This document shows positions 7,054 through 37,382 of a stretch of DNA of 64,000 nucleotides, piece by piece. Within the stretch, counting starts at the first letter, position 1, and each line of letters begins with the position of its first letter. Position numbers and translations under genes: made by a program. Source of the stretch: Haloarcula limicola (GTDB lineage Archaea; Halobacteriota; Halobacteria; Halobacteriales; Haloarculaceae); the NCBI RefSeq assembly GCF_010119205.1, contig NZ_WRXM01000002.1, forward strand, positions 612,982 to 676,981. Direction: 5' to 3'. The notes beneath the pieces were generated by a model. That model saw nothing but the letters and a program-made list of their open reading frames with translations. It was not told where the DNA came from and ran no database searches.

Positions 7054-7148
7054 GTCGGCGGCTTACAGTTCGACGGTAACGAACCTTCCCATGTCGCCTA
7101 GCAACGTGCGGAGTTTGCTGTGCCACTGTCGAGAAGGGAACGACCGCA

Positions 7149-7317
7149 AACAGCCAGAAAGTCCCACCCGTGTCGGCTGTTCGGCTAGCTACTGGGTGGG
7201 ACTGAAAGGGGCGACGTTCTGCACGAACCCCGGCGATGTAAGCACCGCAGGGAGCGAAGCGACCGAGGAGCACAGCGAGCCGTGGGAGTGCAGAACGTCG
7301 GGGCTTTCTGGCTGTTC
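7149..7317. repeat. Variable-stem palindromic element, single-unit (truncated) form
   Basis: It lies in the 331 bp spacer before pitA, which otherwise shows no gene. It starts with CAGCCAGAAAG and ends with its complement inside GGGGCTTTCTGGCTGTTC (7300-7317). A short hairpin TCCCACCC/GGGTGGGA (about 7162-7201) leads to GGGACTGAAAGGGGC (7198-7212). Next comes a stem GACGTTCTGCAC (7213-7224) pairing with GTGCAGAACGTC (7288-7299) around an inner region with GATGTAAGCACCGCAGG and GAGGAGCACAGCGAG. The same end boxes and inner region recur twice at 36195-36455 with different stems. The left unit seen there appears deleted here. Confidence 0.85.
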
Positions 7318-7384
7318 ACAATCTCGAACACAACAAACGCACCAGCGACTCGGACAGAGACACCAGTAACGACGACCCAAACAA

Positions 7385-7699
7385 CTAGACGTCGAAGATG
7401 CGTCGGAGTTGCGACTCGATCTCGGCGACGAACTCGTCGAGTATCGTCTCGGCCTTCTCGTCGTCGGCGACGATCGCGGTGAGGCGGTCGAGCGGGTCCT
7501 CGGGCAGTTCGACGTAGAACCCCTCGTCCTCGTCGTAGAACGGCTCGGACTCGTTGAGGATCTGCTGGTCGATGGCGTGGACGAGCTCGGAGTCGTAGCG
7601 GTCGTTCATCACCTCGAAGGCCTGCTTGTAGGCCTTCTGCAGCTCCGGGAAGTAGTTCGCGTACTTGTCCTCGAACTTCTCGGGGTCGAACTCCGTCAT
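7385..7699 (-). CDS. Conserved haloarchaeal small acidic protein (DUF5783-like)
   Basis: 104 residues, strongly acidic and predicted largely helical, beginning TEFDPEKFEDKYANYFPELQ and ending in LDEFVAEIESQLRRIFDV. No cysteines, membrane segment or catalytic motif is visible. It resembles a family annotated only as DUF5783 in haloarchaea; I know of no function. It is transcribed with the same orientation as the small membrane gene and the RecJ-like gene to its right, but is separated from them by 55 bp or more. It is real by codon pattern and composition. Confidence 0.78.
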   Translation of the reverse strand: MTEFDPEKFEDKYANYFPELQKAYKQAFEVMNDRYDSELVHAIDQQILNESEPFYDEDEGFYVELPEDPLDRLTAIVADDEKAETILDEFVAEIESQLRRIFDV

Positions 7700-15697: not shown

Positions 15698-15735
15698 TCA
15701 TCTACCGACGACTGAAGTCGTGGGCTTGTCCGTGG
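15698..15735 (-). ncRNA. Predicted 3' end of the TnpB guide (omega) RNA scaffold
   Basis: Read on the minus strand, the end of tnpB contains CCCACGACTTCAGTCGTCGG (about 15706-15725), a near-perfect hairpin of the kind that ends haloarchaeal IS1341-type elements. In this family the RNA overlaps the 3' end of tnpB and continues past the element into its guide. The scaffold start upstream cannot be defined by eye; only the terminal hairpin is visible. The guide would be the bases just below 15698. Confidence 0.5.
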
Positions 15736-16954
15736 ACTCCCGGTCTGACGACGAACCGTCGTAGGCGGTGTAATCGCCGTTCCCGTTCACCATCCCAGAC
15801 TTGAGGGCGAGATGACCGTCGCCCAACCCATCGGGACGTTTGCCCGGTGGTAAAGTTAGCAACTTGAGACCGATGTTCTTCGACGCGTTGTAGTCGCCGT
15901 CGACCGAGTAGCCACACTCGTTGCACTCGAACCAGCCAGTCTTGCTATCACGGTTCGTGCTGGACTGATGCTCGCACTTCGAGCAGGTCTGACTCGTAAA
16001 CGCAGGCGGAATCTCCTCCACGCGGATACCGTACCCGCTGGCTTTGTACGCGAGCATTTCTTGAAGTTCGCGGAACGCCCAGTTGTGCATCTGACGCTTT
16101 ATTTGGTCGTTCCCGTTGTCCATTCGCTCGCGGATGTGGGTCAAGCGTTCGACGGCGATGTACGAACAATCGTGGGCGTCGGCTTCCTCCACGATGCGCC
16201 GAGAGATAGTGTGCAGGCGATTCAGCACGAAGCGGTTTTCTCGCCCCGACAGTCGCCGGAGTACCTGCTTGGCGGAGCGAGTGCCTTTGTGCTGAAGGCT
16301 TCGACGCACGCGGAAGTAGTGGTTCTGGCCCCACAGCAGTTCGCCACCATCGTAGAACGACCCCGTACTCGTCACGGCGACGTTCTTCAGGTTCAAGTCC
16401 ACGCCCAGTACCGTGTCACCGTCGCGTTCTTCGACCTCTTTTTTGATGACGATGTGGAGGTAGAACGCATCCTCGTCCTCGCGGTAGTGGAGCGTTCCCA
16501 TTCGTTTTTCGTAGTCGTCGTCATCGAGGTAGGACTTCTGGTAGTCTCCGAGAACGTAGTCAACGCCAACCCTGCCGTTGATGGTGGAAAGGGTGGCAGA
16601 CCTGTCCTTGATGGTCAGCGTCCGTTTGTCGTAGACGGCTGACGGCTCGTTGAATCGTGGGAGTGGTCGGCTGTTACCCTTCTTCCAGTCTGCAACTGTA
16701 GATTTCATCGCTTCGATGGCTTTCGAGTAGGCGCGAACGCAGAGGTTCGCGGGCAGGTCTGTCTCGTCTCGTAGGTCGTGGTACACTTCGTCGTGTATGG
16801 TGGACTTGTTGAGGATGAGATAGCCGTCGTCGTTTCTACCGTGTTGGACGGTGTAGTTGCAGGCGTGGTTGAACTGCCCGATAGTCTGATGGAGGTCGCT
16901 CTGTCGGTCTTCGGGAACCGAGAGTTTGACCAGAACGGTTCGTTTGACCTCCAT
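15698..16954 (-). CDS. tnpB: TnpB RNA-guided nuclease (IS200/IS605, IS1341-type), no tnpA
   Basis: 418 residues from the Met of [16 protein letters not shown] (16954). RuvC-like nuclease parts are in order: Asp in [12 protein letters not shown] (about 183-194), Glu in [12 protein letters not shown] (about 265-276) and Asp in [12 protein letters not shown] (about 351-362). A zinc ribbon, CSKC (324-327) and CNEC (344-347), sits between the last two. All catalytic residues are intact. TnpB enzymes cut DNA guided by an RNA from the element's own 3' end. No TnpA transposase is nearby. A minus-strand TATA-like TTTATAAAAC (16979-16988) lies at leaderless distance. It is upstream of carS on the same strand. 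Confidence 0.93.
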
Positions 16955-17124
16955 CTGTAACCTCACGTACGAAGTAGTGTTTTATAAATTCTACAACGGG
17001 CGTGGGGGAGTCGAATTGCTATCGCTCGTGGTTGGTTTCGAGCTTTGTGACTCGTACCGAGCGCGTGTCACGACGATAGCGCGACGCGGCAACCTTCTTG
17101 CCGTCCGGGTGGCAACTATCGGGC

Positions 17125-35060: not shown

Positions 35061-36104
35061 TCAGTCGTGGAGTTCCGAGACGTCGAAGACCGGTTTGCAC
35101 GTCTCGCCCGCGACGAACGCCTCGAAGGCCTCGTCGGCTTCGAGCAGCGAGAAGCGATCGTCGAGGAACGTCTCGGCGTCGACGTCGCCCCGGTCGATGA
35201 GCCTGAGCGAGCGGTCGAAGTCGTCGTACATCGAGGCGTAGGAACACTGGAGGTCGATCTCCGAGCGGACCAGCGGGGAGTACGGCATCGTCGTCTCGCC
35301 CGTCTGCCCGATAAGCACGATCTGGCCGCCCTTGCGGACCTCGTCGACGGCCGAGGGAAGTCCAGACGGGTGACCGGTCGTGTCGAACACCACGTCGTAA
35401 CCCACGCCGTCGGTGAGAGCCTCGCGGCGCGCCGCCATGTCGTCCTCGGCGACGTTAACCGTCTCGAAGCCGAGTTCCTCCGCGAGCGGGAGGCGGTACT
35501 CGGCGTCCTGGCCGACGCCGGAGACGAGCACTCTGCCGCCCTGTGCGTCGGCGATCTGCGCCGTGAGGAGACCGATCGGCCCCGGCCCCTCCACGAGGAC
35601 GCGGTCGCCCGCCGAGACCCGCGAGTTCTCGATGACCGCGCGGGCGGCGATGCTCGTCGGTTCGACCATCGCGGCGTGCTGCTGTTCGACGCTGTCGGGG
35701 ACCGGATGCAGCGCCCGCTCGGGGACGGCGACGAACTGTTCGTAGGCCCCGTCGTGGTCGACGCCCGTGATGACCGCGTTCTGACAGACGTTCGACTCCC
35801 CGATCTCGCACTGGTAGCAGTCGCCACAGCCCCGGATCGGCCGCTCGACGACCCGGTCGCCCACGTCGAACTTCGTGACGGCGTCGCCGACCTCGACGAC
35901 GCGCCCGGAGTACTCGTGGCCGATGACCGTCGGGAGATTCATCCGCTCGAAGGCCGATTCGAACTCGTAGATACCCGCGTCGCTCCCGCAGAGACCGGCG
36001 TAGTCGACCTCGACGAGCGCCTCGTCGGCGGCCGGTTCCGGCCGGTCGCGGTCGACGAACTCCATAGCGCCGTGACTACGGTTAACTTTGGCTAGTCCAC
36101 GCAT
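35061..36104 (-). CDS. Zinc-dependent medium-chain alcohol/polyol dehydrogenase
   Basis: 347 residues. Catalytic zinc ligands are in YAGLCGSDAGIY (Cys, about 39) and VIGHEYSGRVV (His-Glu, about 60-61). The structural zinc loop has four cysteines in CGDCYQCEIGESNVC (about 93-107). The cofactor site is VLVEGPGPIGLLTAQIA (about 170-186). It resembles sorbitol/threonine/galactitol dehydrogenases, and in this setting it probably acts on a sugar or polyol. A TATA-like AACTATTACG (about 36130-36139) precedes it. The exact substrate is not visible. Confidence 0.9.
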   Translation of the reverse strand: MRGLAKVNRSHGAMEFVDRDRPEPAADEALVEVDYAGLCGSDAGIYEFESAFERMNLPTVIGHEYSGRVVEVGDAVTKFDVGDRVVERPIRGCGDCYQCEIGESNVCQNAVITGVDHDGAYEQFVAVPERALHPVPDSVEQQHAAMVEPTSIAARAVIENSRVSAGDRVLVEGPGPIGLLTAQIADAQGGRVLVSGVGQDAEYRLPLAEELGFETVNVAEDDMAARREALTDGVGYDVVFDTTGHPSGLPSAVDEVRKGGQIVLIGQTGETTMPYSPLVRSEIDLQCSYASMYDDFDRSLRLIDRGDVDAETFLDDRFSLLEADEAFEAFVAGETCKPVFDVSELHD

Positions 36105-36194
36105 ACGGTTTGGAAAATCGCTCGGGCGTAATAGTTCTATGGTTCCCGGCCTAGCAGTGGTCAGTGAGGGGGAGTTCGACGAGGGGAGTATCTC

Positions 36195-36455
36195 GAACAG
36201 CCAGAAAGCCCCCGGACGCTCGATTGCCGGGACTCGCTGTGCGCGCTCACTTCGTTCGCGTGCTTACGTCGTCCGGGCTAATCGAGCGTCCGGCCCCTTT
36301 CAGTCCCACCCCGTAGCTGGTCGGCCAGCCGATACGGGCGGGACTGAAAGGGGCCGCTCGTTCCGGGAAGACGGGCGACGTAAGGACCGCAGGCCGGAGG
36401 CCGAGGACCGCAGCGAGCCCCTCGACTGGAACGAGCGGGGGCTTTCTGGCTGTTC
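36195..36455. repeat. Variable-stem palindromic element, full two-unit form
   Basis: 261 bp bounded by a perfect 18 bp inverted repeat (GAACAGCCAGAAAGCCCC at 36195-36212; its complement at 36438-36455). The centre is a perfect 15 bp inverted repeat (GCCCCTTTCAGTCCC at 36293-36307 with 36340-36354). Between centre and each end is an arm with its own perfect stem: CGGACGCTCGATT (36213-36225) with 36280-36292, and CGCTCGTTCC (36355-36364) with 36428-36437. The arms' inner regions are alike when one is reversed (ACGTAAG, CGCAG or similar, CAGCGAG) although the stems differ. Two mirror-image units therefore make up the element. It fills much of the 504 bp spacer 36105-36608, where I see no gene. 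Confidence 0.9.
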
Positions 36456-36608
36456 TGGGTCCTCACGGTTCCGTCGGCGGTACACGAATCAGTGGCTGCT
36501 AGCGGGGCTTTCTAACCGTCCGTCGTCGAGCTCTCACTCTCCGTTCGAACTGAACCAACCGTTGCTAGGTCCACAAGGGTCAAATAGGCGCGTGCCGAGG
36601 TGTGGCGT

Positions 36609-37382
36609 ATGGTTTCCTACGAGCACACGCCAGTCACAGTCGCGGGCAAGCGGGCCGTCGTCGTCGGCGGGACCAGCGGCATCGGACAGGCCATCGCCCT
36701 CGGCTTCGCGGCGGAGGGCGCGGACGTCATCGCCACCAGCCGCAGCGAGGACGCCGTCGAGGAGACGGCCGCGGAGATCGAGGAGCACGGCGTCGACACC
36801 GCGCGGGTCACCTGCGACGTGACAGACGCCGAGACGCTCGACGAAGTGCGCGAGACCGCCGAGGACGCCTTCGGCGGCGTCGACGTCGTCGTCGCCTCGC
36901 AGGGGGCGATCTCCCGGGAGACGGTGCGGGACATCGGCGACGACGACTGGGACTTCGTCACGGACGTGGCCCTCGACGGCGTCCGCCGGGTCACGCAGGC
37001 GATGGCTCCGGCGATGGACGGGGGCGGCTCCATCGTCAACATCTCCTCGCTCGCCGCGCGCCTCGCCATGGCGAACCTCCCGGCGTACTCGGCCGCGAAG
37101 GGCGGCGTCGAGGCGTTCACGCGCGCGTCGGCGAAGGAACTCGCGCCCGAGATCCGCGTCAACGCCATCGCACCCGGGTTCGTCATCACGCCCCAGAACG
37201 CCGAGACGTACGCCGAGGGCACCGAGAAGCGGGAAAAGATCGATGACAGGACACCGCTCGGTCGGGTCGCGGACCGCGAGGAGATGGTCGGCGCGGCCGT
37301 CTACCTCGCTAGCGACGCGTCGTCGTTCGTCACCGGCGAAGTCCTCACCGTCGACGGCGGATTCGCCGACAGCGCCTTCTGA
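36609..37382 (+). CDS. Short-chain dehydrogenase/reductase of the sugar island
   Basis: 257 residues from ATG 36609; the in-frame GTG at 36600 is less likely. SDR motifs are VVVGGTSGIGQAIALGF (about 19-35), VVVASQGAISRET (in place of NNAG, so Ser-Gln-Gly), IVNISSLAARLA (catalytic Ser), AYSAAKGGVEAF (Tyr, Lys) and INAIAPGFV-like VNAIAPGFVIT. Oxidation of a sugar or lactol is plausible in context. It is the only plus-strand gene in this part of the island. A TATA-like TCAAATAGG (about 36580-36588) lies at leaderless distance. Confidence 0.9.
   Translation: MVSYEHTPVTVAGKRAVVVGGTSGIGQAIALGFAAEGADVIATSRSEDAVEETAAEIEEHGVDTARVTCDVTDAETLDEVRETAEDAFGGVDVVVASQGAISRETVRDIGDDDWDFVTDVALDGVRRVTQAMAPAMDGGGSIVNISSLAARLAMANLPAYSAAKGGVEAFTRASAKELAPEIRVNAIAPGFVITPQNAETYAEGTEKREKIDDRTPLGRVADREEMVGAAVYLASDASSFVTGEVLTVDGGFADSAF

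Follow-up and report, generated by a model that had tools for sequence, protein, structure and literature searches.

In bacteria, REP/BIME repeats are intergenic palindromes that occur in many copies and often in inverted pairs, form strand-specific hairpins in single-stranded DNA (ssDNA), and are associated with a domesticated Y1 (RAYT) transposase. Modular or palindromic intergenic repeats also include MIRU of mycobacteria, BOX of pneumococcus and RPE of Rickettsia; BOX and MIRU consist of tandem modules of ~45-100 bp, and MIRU and RPE have reading-frame-compatible lengths. The haloarchaeon Haloquadratum walsbyi has palindrome-associated transposable elements (PATEs), in which 20-50 bp of heterogeneous end sequence lie beyond the palindrome and a terminal oligonucleotide is conserved; PATEs also host nested small mobile repeats (PMC3119063). 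The SMR-A and SMR-B repeats of Haloquadratum are small and palindromic, have no target duplication and no known transposase, and are more than 95% identical within each type (PMC3119063).

The description of PATEs (PMC3119063) comes closest to an element that we analyzed in a 64,000-nt stretch of Haloarcula limicola DNA (the window). Like PATEs, this haloarchaeal element is short, lacks a transposase gene, and has palindromes, a variable end region, a short conserved end motif and nested palindromic repeats. However, PATE palindromes match IS605-type ends, whereas the present element matches none of those tested, and it differs further in its head-to-head units, 18-bp inverted outer boxes, freely varying but compensated stems and spacers in triplet register. 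With bacterial REP/BIME repeats it has in common many intergenic palindromes, often in inverted pairs, and strand-specific hairpins; unlike REPs, which are 20-40 bp long with conserved palindrome letters and a GTAG-type tetranucleotide tag, its unit measures ~110 nt, its stem letters are free, and its genome (G000) has no Y1 gene. SMR-A/B are likewise palindromic haloarchaeal repeats, but the present units are heterogeneous, and the small palindromes nested in their arms are better SMR candidates than the unit itself. Compared by description only, MIRU, BOX and RPE differ in that the triplet register here is limited to the spacer between the outer box and CTAG.

Hairpin shape is kept while stem letters vary

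The initial annotation had claimed a mirror-image pair of one unit with nested perfect stems of 18, 15, 13 and 10 bp at 36195-36455. All four stems are present, and the pair indeed consists of one unit present twice in head-to-head orientation, with differing stems (Table 1). The feature reaches past this interval to the flanking CTAG tetramers, a second outer box and a further CTAG. The single-strand fold of the 261 nt is an outer stem with three hairpins (a four-way cross), at -103.8 kcal/mol compared with -58.8 +/- 4.0 for shuffles (z -11.3), an energy that does not distinguish DNA from RNA. The covariance model R1 found exactly three strong units in the window (E 1e-21 to 1e-25), and the central 15-mer GGGACTGAAAGGGGC occurs three times there, compared with 0.09 expected. 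The central palindrome contains GGGYGGG, which is the 5' end of both units.

Table 1. Positions of the features of the paired and one-armed elements in the window
Feature	Position	Strand	Details
Left spacer, triplet-registered, hypervariable	36155..36194	-	ends at CTAG 36151-36154
Left outer box GAACAGCCAGAAAGCCCC	36195..36212	-	exact 18-bp inverted repeat; pairs with 36438-36455
Outer stem, perfect	36195-36212 / 36438-36455		18 bp
Left hairpin unit (copy 2)	36204..36306	-	box GGACTGAAAGGGGC, arm with 13-bp stem, box GGGGCTTTC; R1 101.4 bits, E 3.2e-21; ssDNA fold z -4.96
Left arm	36213..36292	-	subfamily CGATTAGCCCGGACGACG
Left arm stem, perfect	36213-36225 / 36280-36292		13 bp
Central palindrome	36293..36354	.	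CCCCTTTCAGTCCC / GGGACTGAAAGGGG around a 32-nt imperfect hairpin
Central stem, perfect	36293-36307 / 36340-36354		15 bp
Right hairpin unit (copy 3)	36341..36446	+	arm with 10-bp stem; R1 107.4 bits, E 1.3e-22; ssDNA fold z -2.44
Right arm	36355..36437	+	loop motif GACGTAAGGACC ... GGACCGCAGCGA
Right arm stem, perfect	36355-36364 / 36428-36437		10 bp
Right outer box GGGGCTTTCTGGCTGTTC	36438..36455	+	exact 18-bp inverted repeat; same box at 7300-7317
Right spacer, triplet-registered	36456..36498	+	ends at CTAG 36499-36502
Degenerate second module	36504..36568	+	box GGGGCTTTCTAACCGT, spacer, CTAG 36565-36568
Degenerate second outer box	36504-36519
One-armed element	7149..7317	+	R1 120.6 bits, E 1.2e-25; orthologous sites; centre follows the junction
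Junction of one-armed element	7149-7169		outer box joined to CCCACCC; AACAGCCAGAAAG joined to TCCCACCC
Unit of one-armed element	7199-7308
Outer box of one-armed element	7300-7317
CTAG flanking one-armed element	7098-7101 and 7385-7388

Each arm is one copy of the ~110-nt unit, in which conserved boxes surround a hairpin. Its first half runs from GGGYGGGACTGAAAGGGGC through a stem of ~12 bp, an inner stem, the loop strand GAYGYAA and GSACC to a variable tip; the second half consists of GGNSC, the loop strand RCARCGA, the inner stem, the stem, GGGGCTTTC and the outer box TGGCTGTTC. The geometry is fixed, with 22 nt to the 5' loop motif and 28 nt from the 3' motif.

Copies whose boxes are intact are over-represented in the unit collections. 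Unsupervised RNAalifold analysis of 38 diverse units gave one long hairpin, with compensated double changes in 23 of its 32 pairs. In the named structure, 19 of the 22 pairs were changed on both sides, 95.3% of cells were paired, and double-change cells numbered 206 compared with 59.9 after shuffling (none of 500 shuffles was as good), the copies being related and the changes therefore not independent events. When partners were slid by 1-3 columns, pairing dropped to 30-42%. The 5-bp outer helix GAAAG/CTTTC, invariant in the Haloarcula set, is compensated to CAAAG/CTTTG and GGAAG/CTTCC in other clades. Imperfect stem positions were G.T rather than A.C, by 63 to 14 in 196 units and by 116 to 25 in a larger set of 314 arms, again counted over related copies. 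Since the other strand would show A.C instead, it is the fold of the unit strand that is kept. Covariation beyond the phylogenetic and slid controls, combined with strand-specific wobble pairs, is what a structured RNA displays, and it does not separate RNA from ssDNA. These results showed that the hairpin shape and the internal-loop letters are constrained and the stem letters free, within the conserved frame GGGYGGGACTGAAAGGGGC ... GGGGCTTTC plus the outer box, and that two units can sit head to head around a common central palindrome.

The motif GGGNGGG is conserved in 73% of solo units and 67% of pairs, and a matching CCCNCCC lies near only 5% of solo units, so the G-rich motif is not kept merely for the central palindrome. 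Together with two GGGG tracts, GGGYGGG could form a quadruplex; the candidate is GGGYGGGACTGAAAGGGG-arm-GGGG.

Spread, placement and spacers

About 30 units are present in G000, where the central 15-mer with at most one mismatch gave 36 boxes and its reversed-pattern control 1. A pattern scan found at least 120 stretches from many haloarchaeal genera, all titles being haloarchaeal among the matches listed. With the covariance model, the unit was detected in 38 of 246 Halobacteriota genomes, all from the order of the window, in which 38 of the 43 sampled haloarchaea carry it and five do not; none was found in the roughly 200 Halobacteriota genomes outside that order. Some haloarchaeal plasmids also carry the unit, unannotated. 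No Rfam 15 family scored above its gathering score, weak matches to microRNA models far below gathering being palindrome artefacts, and a text search of the open-access literature for the box sequences found none. Neither Rfam nor the searched literature appears to describe this abundant structured element of nearly all sampled haloarchaea. No match was contained in IMG/VR (exact pattern) or in phage records, and a virus or phage origin was rejected on these searches.

Placement is mostly intergenic. By rough, scripted gene calls, the neighbours are oriented +/+ in 56, -/+ in 48, -/- in 42 and +/- in 26 cases; as all orientations occur, the element is neither terminator-like nor leader-like. 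A promoter or terminator was rejected on the same grounds, convergent pairs being under-represented. Stems made of coding or promoter sequence, which the initial annotation had named as counting against its own reading, were looked for and not found, and an ORF spanning the element (36088-36822) was taken as spurious. In about ten elements the adjacent gene stops at a TAG that coincides with the CTAG end (7382-7391; L007, L009, L010, L012, L046, L111, L153, L170).

The spacer outside the outer box ends at CTAG, a tetramer that is rare in these genomes (0.39 per kb) and whose distance from the box is 3n+1 in 87 of 99 cases. Over 283 outer-box ends from all loci, every third spacer base is pyrimidine-rich and G-poor out to ~60 nt. 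Spacer lengths differ between relatives by multiples of three, and where box plus spacer is repeated in tandem, the period is 45 or 48 bp. Tandem arrays of box, spacer and TTGCTAGC with exact 45- or 48-bp periods (L333 950-1800 (G009), L335 1150-1800 (G001), L344, L345) flank the paired element on one side or on both. Protein coding, suggested by the triplet register and the 3n lengths, was rejected: there is no start codon, the best frame contains 10 stops in 1,385 codons, and none of the three phases has more substitutions between relatives than the others. Triplet slippage was also rejected as the source, since no autocorrelation exceeded the phase composition.

Turnover of arms at fixed sites

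The 7.2-kb element equals the 36.2-kb element without its left arm. At this site G000 kept the right arm, its closest relative G041 kept the left and lost the right, the further relative G046 has only fused outer boxes, and G022 has nothing; by this comparison of sequences the paired form was likely the ancestor. The opposite arms kept in G000 and G041 agree with the order of events proposed earlier, in which the 7.2-kb copy is a one-armed derivative of the paired form. At the 36.2-kb site, only an 87-bp remnant lies between the CTAG ends in G041, and almost nothing is left in G022.

We compared 15 sites between G000 and G041, each chosen for a box in at least one of the two genomes; their flanks are 85-95% identical. 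At 13 of them the element or a recognisable remnant is present in G041 as well, so the insertions are older than the split. Where both genomes are armed, type A arms are mostly unrelated (e.g. 0.47-0.67 identity), and at L021/L278 the arms have swapped sides, the right one in G000 matching the left one in G041 at 92% between flanks of ~90%; two type B arms are conserved (0.95 and 0.91). Sites common to G045 and G046 have nearly identical arms, with a nested palindrome gained or lost in one of them; at two sites (L252/L313, L257/L268) an arm was lost, and the junction lies at GGGG repeats. The sign that had been expected to speak against the initial annotation, identical arms in relatives, is therefore mixed: it appears at the common G045/G046 sites and at two G000/G041 sites, whereas G000/G041 arms are often unrelated.

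The inner-stem subfamily CGATTAGCCCGGACGACG occupies seven sites of G000, including the left arm of the 36.2-kb element; its outer stem letters differ between copies yet pair, with one copy excepted. Within subfamilies, double-change paired cells numbered 10,707 and one-sided cells 1,727. Deletion, inversion and replacement thus affect the arms of sites that themselves persist, and small nested palindromes insert into these arms. The element offers a clear case from nature of a shape conserved as its sequence is exchanged, traceable site by site in close relatives.

In the proposal of a mobile hairpin with swappable stems, the hairpin and the stems differing between copies and relatives held up, and calling the stems swappable describes them fairly. 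That the whole element is mobile is something we infer, and its recent mobility was not borne out: 13 of the 15 sites are common to G041, there is no linked transposase, and the proposed inspection of empty sites found no target duplication, these sites being too diverged to place the ends to the base.

A second, unrelated arm type (GATATGTC ... GCGACCGC) occurs in the same frame (L301/L292, L024/L276, L268, L010 (-)) and is conserved at common sites where type A arms are replaced. Type A arms are also found reversed inside the frame (L087 + 2826, L383 + 896). Small palindromic repeats GTTCGAAAG..CTTTCGTCATCACGAGAGAGC..GCTCTCTCGAAC are nested in arms (L307/L258, L029, L012, L306), in one and not the other of two close relatives, and resemble the small mobile repeats of Haloquadratum.

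Mobilising enzymes and competing explanations

G000, which is 99.98% complete, gave no match to Y1_Tnp, and the gene may have been lost after the insertions. Across the genus, copy number showed no link to Y1_Tnp, and neither unit nor box lies within ~1.5 kb of 20 TnpA and 3 TnpB genes; an IS605/TnpB end was rejected on these grounds. The window itself has an IS1341-type TnpB without TnpA (15698-16966, - strand), which has no element-like ends. At these loci the ends of the element showed no relation to IS605-type transposons of the host group. CTAG flanks it on both sides, and the empty sites are too diverged to give the exact ends by which insertion beside a fixed 4-6 nt target, without target duplication, would be recognised. 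Unlike a MITE, it has no terminal inverted repeats in common with an autonomous transposon, its arm stems differ between copies, and no gene-carrying version was found among the fetched loci. GGGGC direct repeats flank the arms, and a mobile arm with GGGGC target duplication was considered, but empty frames (GAAAGGGGCTTTC) are few and have the look of deletions. In our judgement the element works like REP/BIME and PATE repeats yet fails the tests for either; it was not filed with them because the genome has no Y1 gene, copy number is not linked to Y1, and no unit lies at TnpA/TnpB loci.

With confidence somewhat above even, we read it as a non-coding hairpin element interspersed in genomes throughout the class of haloarchaea, most likely a selfish and non-autonomous one, similar to REP/BIME or PATE repeats. 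The unit strand would act as a single-stranded hairpin, probably in an ssDNA intermediate and less likely as RNA, which a putative protein would recognise by shape, box and loop. Stem letters would drift, and selection may restore pairing together with hairpin-templated (quasi-palindrome) copying and with ectopic gene conversion among copies; slippage between GGGGC direct repeats, which lie at the feet of the arms, would remove arms. Against this reading, no mobilising enzyme was found in G000, and active transposition was not seen, as most compared sites are old. The class-wide structural conservation exceeds the need of a decaying selfish repeat and could mean a host function.

Covariation, strand-specific G.U pairs, conserved internal-loop letters and class-wide conservation would also suit a transcribed structured RNA family, a cis or trans regulator or a scaffold for RNA-binding proteins, spread intergenically with the unit strand as the RNA. 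We consider this unlikely, though it is the strongest of the alternatives: the unit has no fixed relation to neighbouring genes, the profile of solo units shows no TATA-like conservation upstream, arms are deleted or swapped while the site persists, no Rfam family corresponds, and head-to-head pairs leave ~30 bp for two promoters.

Less probable still is a haloarchaea-wide, shape-read, strand-specific hairpin system with its own machine. It would actively exchange arms at fixed sites and build spacers in triplet steps from 45- or 48-bp modules ending at CTAG, and the fixed frame may be a G-quadruplex with the arm as its loop (GGGYGGG-ACTGAAA-GGGG-arm-GGGG).

That these are non-autonomous IS200/IS605-type elements, namely PATEs with end palindromes, a variable end region of 20-50 bp and CTAG as terminal oligonucleotide, moved by TnpA on ssDNA, is doubtful and ranks lower again. 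The strand specificity fits an ssDNA intermediate, and Haloquadratum PATEs have a similar heterogeneous end, terminal oligonucleotide and nested repeats (PMC3119063), but the TnpA results given above for G000, for the 20 TnpA and 3 TnpB loci and for copy number all argue the other way, and CTAG on both sides at 3n spacing is unlike a one-sided target oligonucleotide.

We give the least credence to a mutational by-product, in which hairpin-templated correction keeps the palindrome and gene conversion spreads it without selection on the fold, since, for all the evident recombination between copies and the nearly always compensated subfamily differences, it leaves unexplained the G.T over A.C strand bias, the fixed distances to the loop motifs, the conserved unpaired loop letters and GGGYGGG in solo units.
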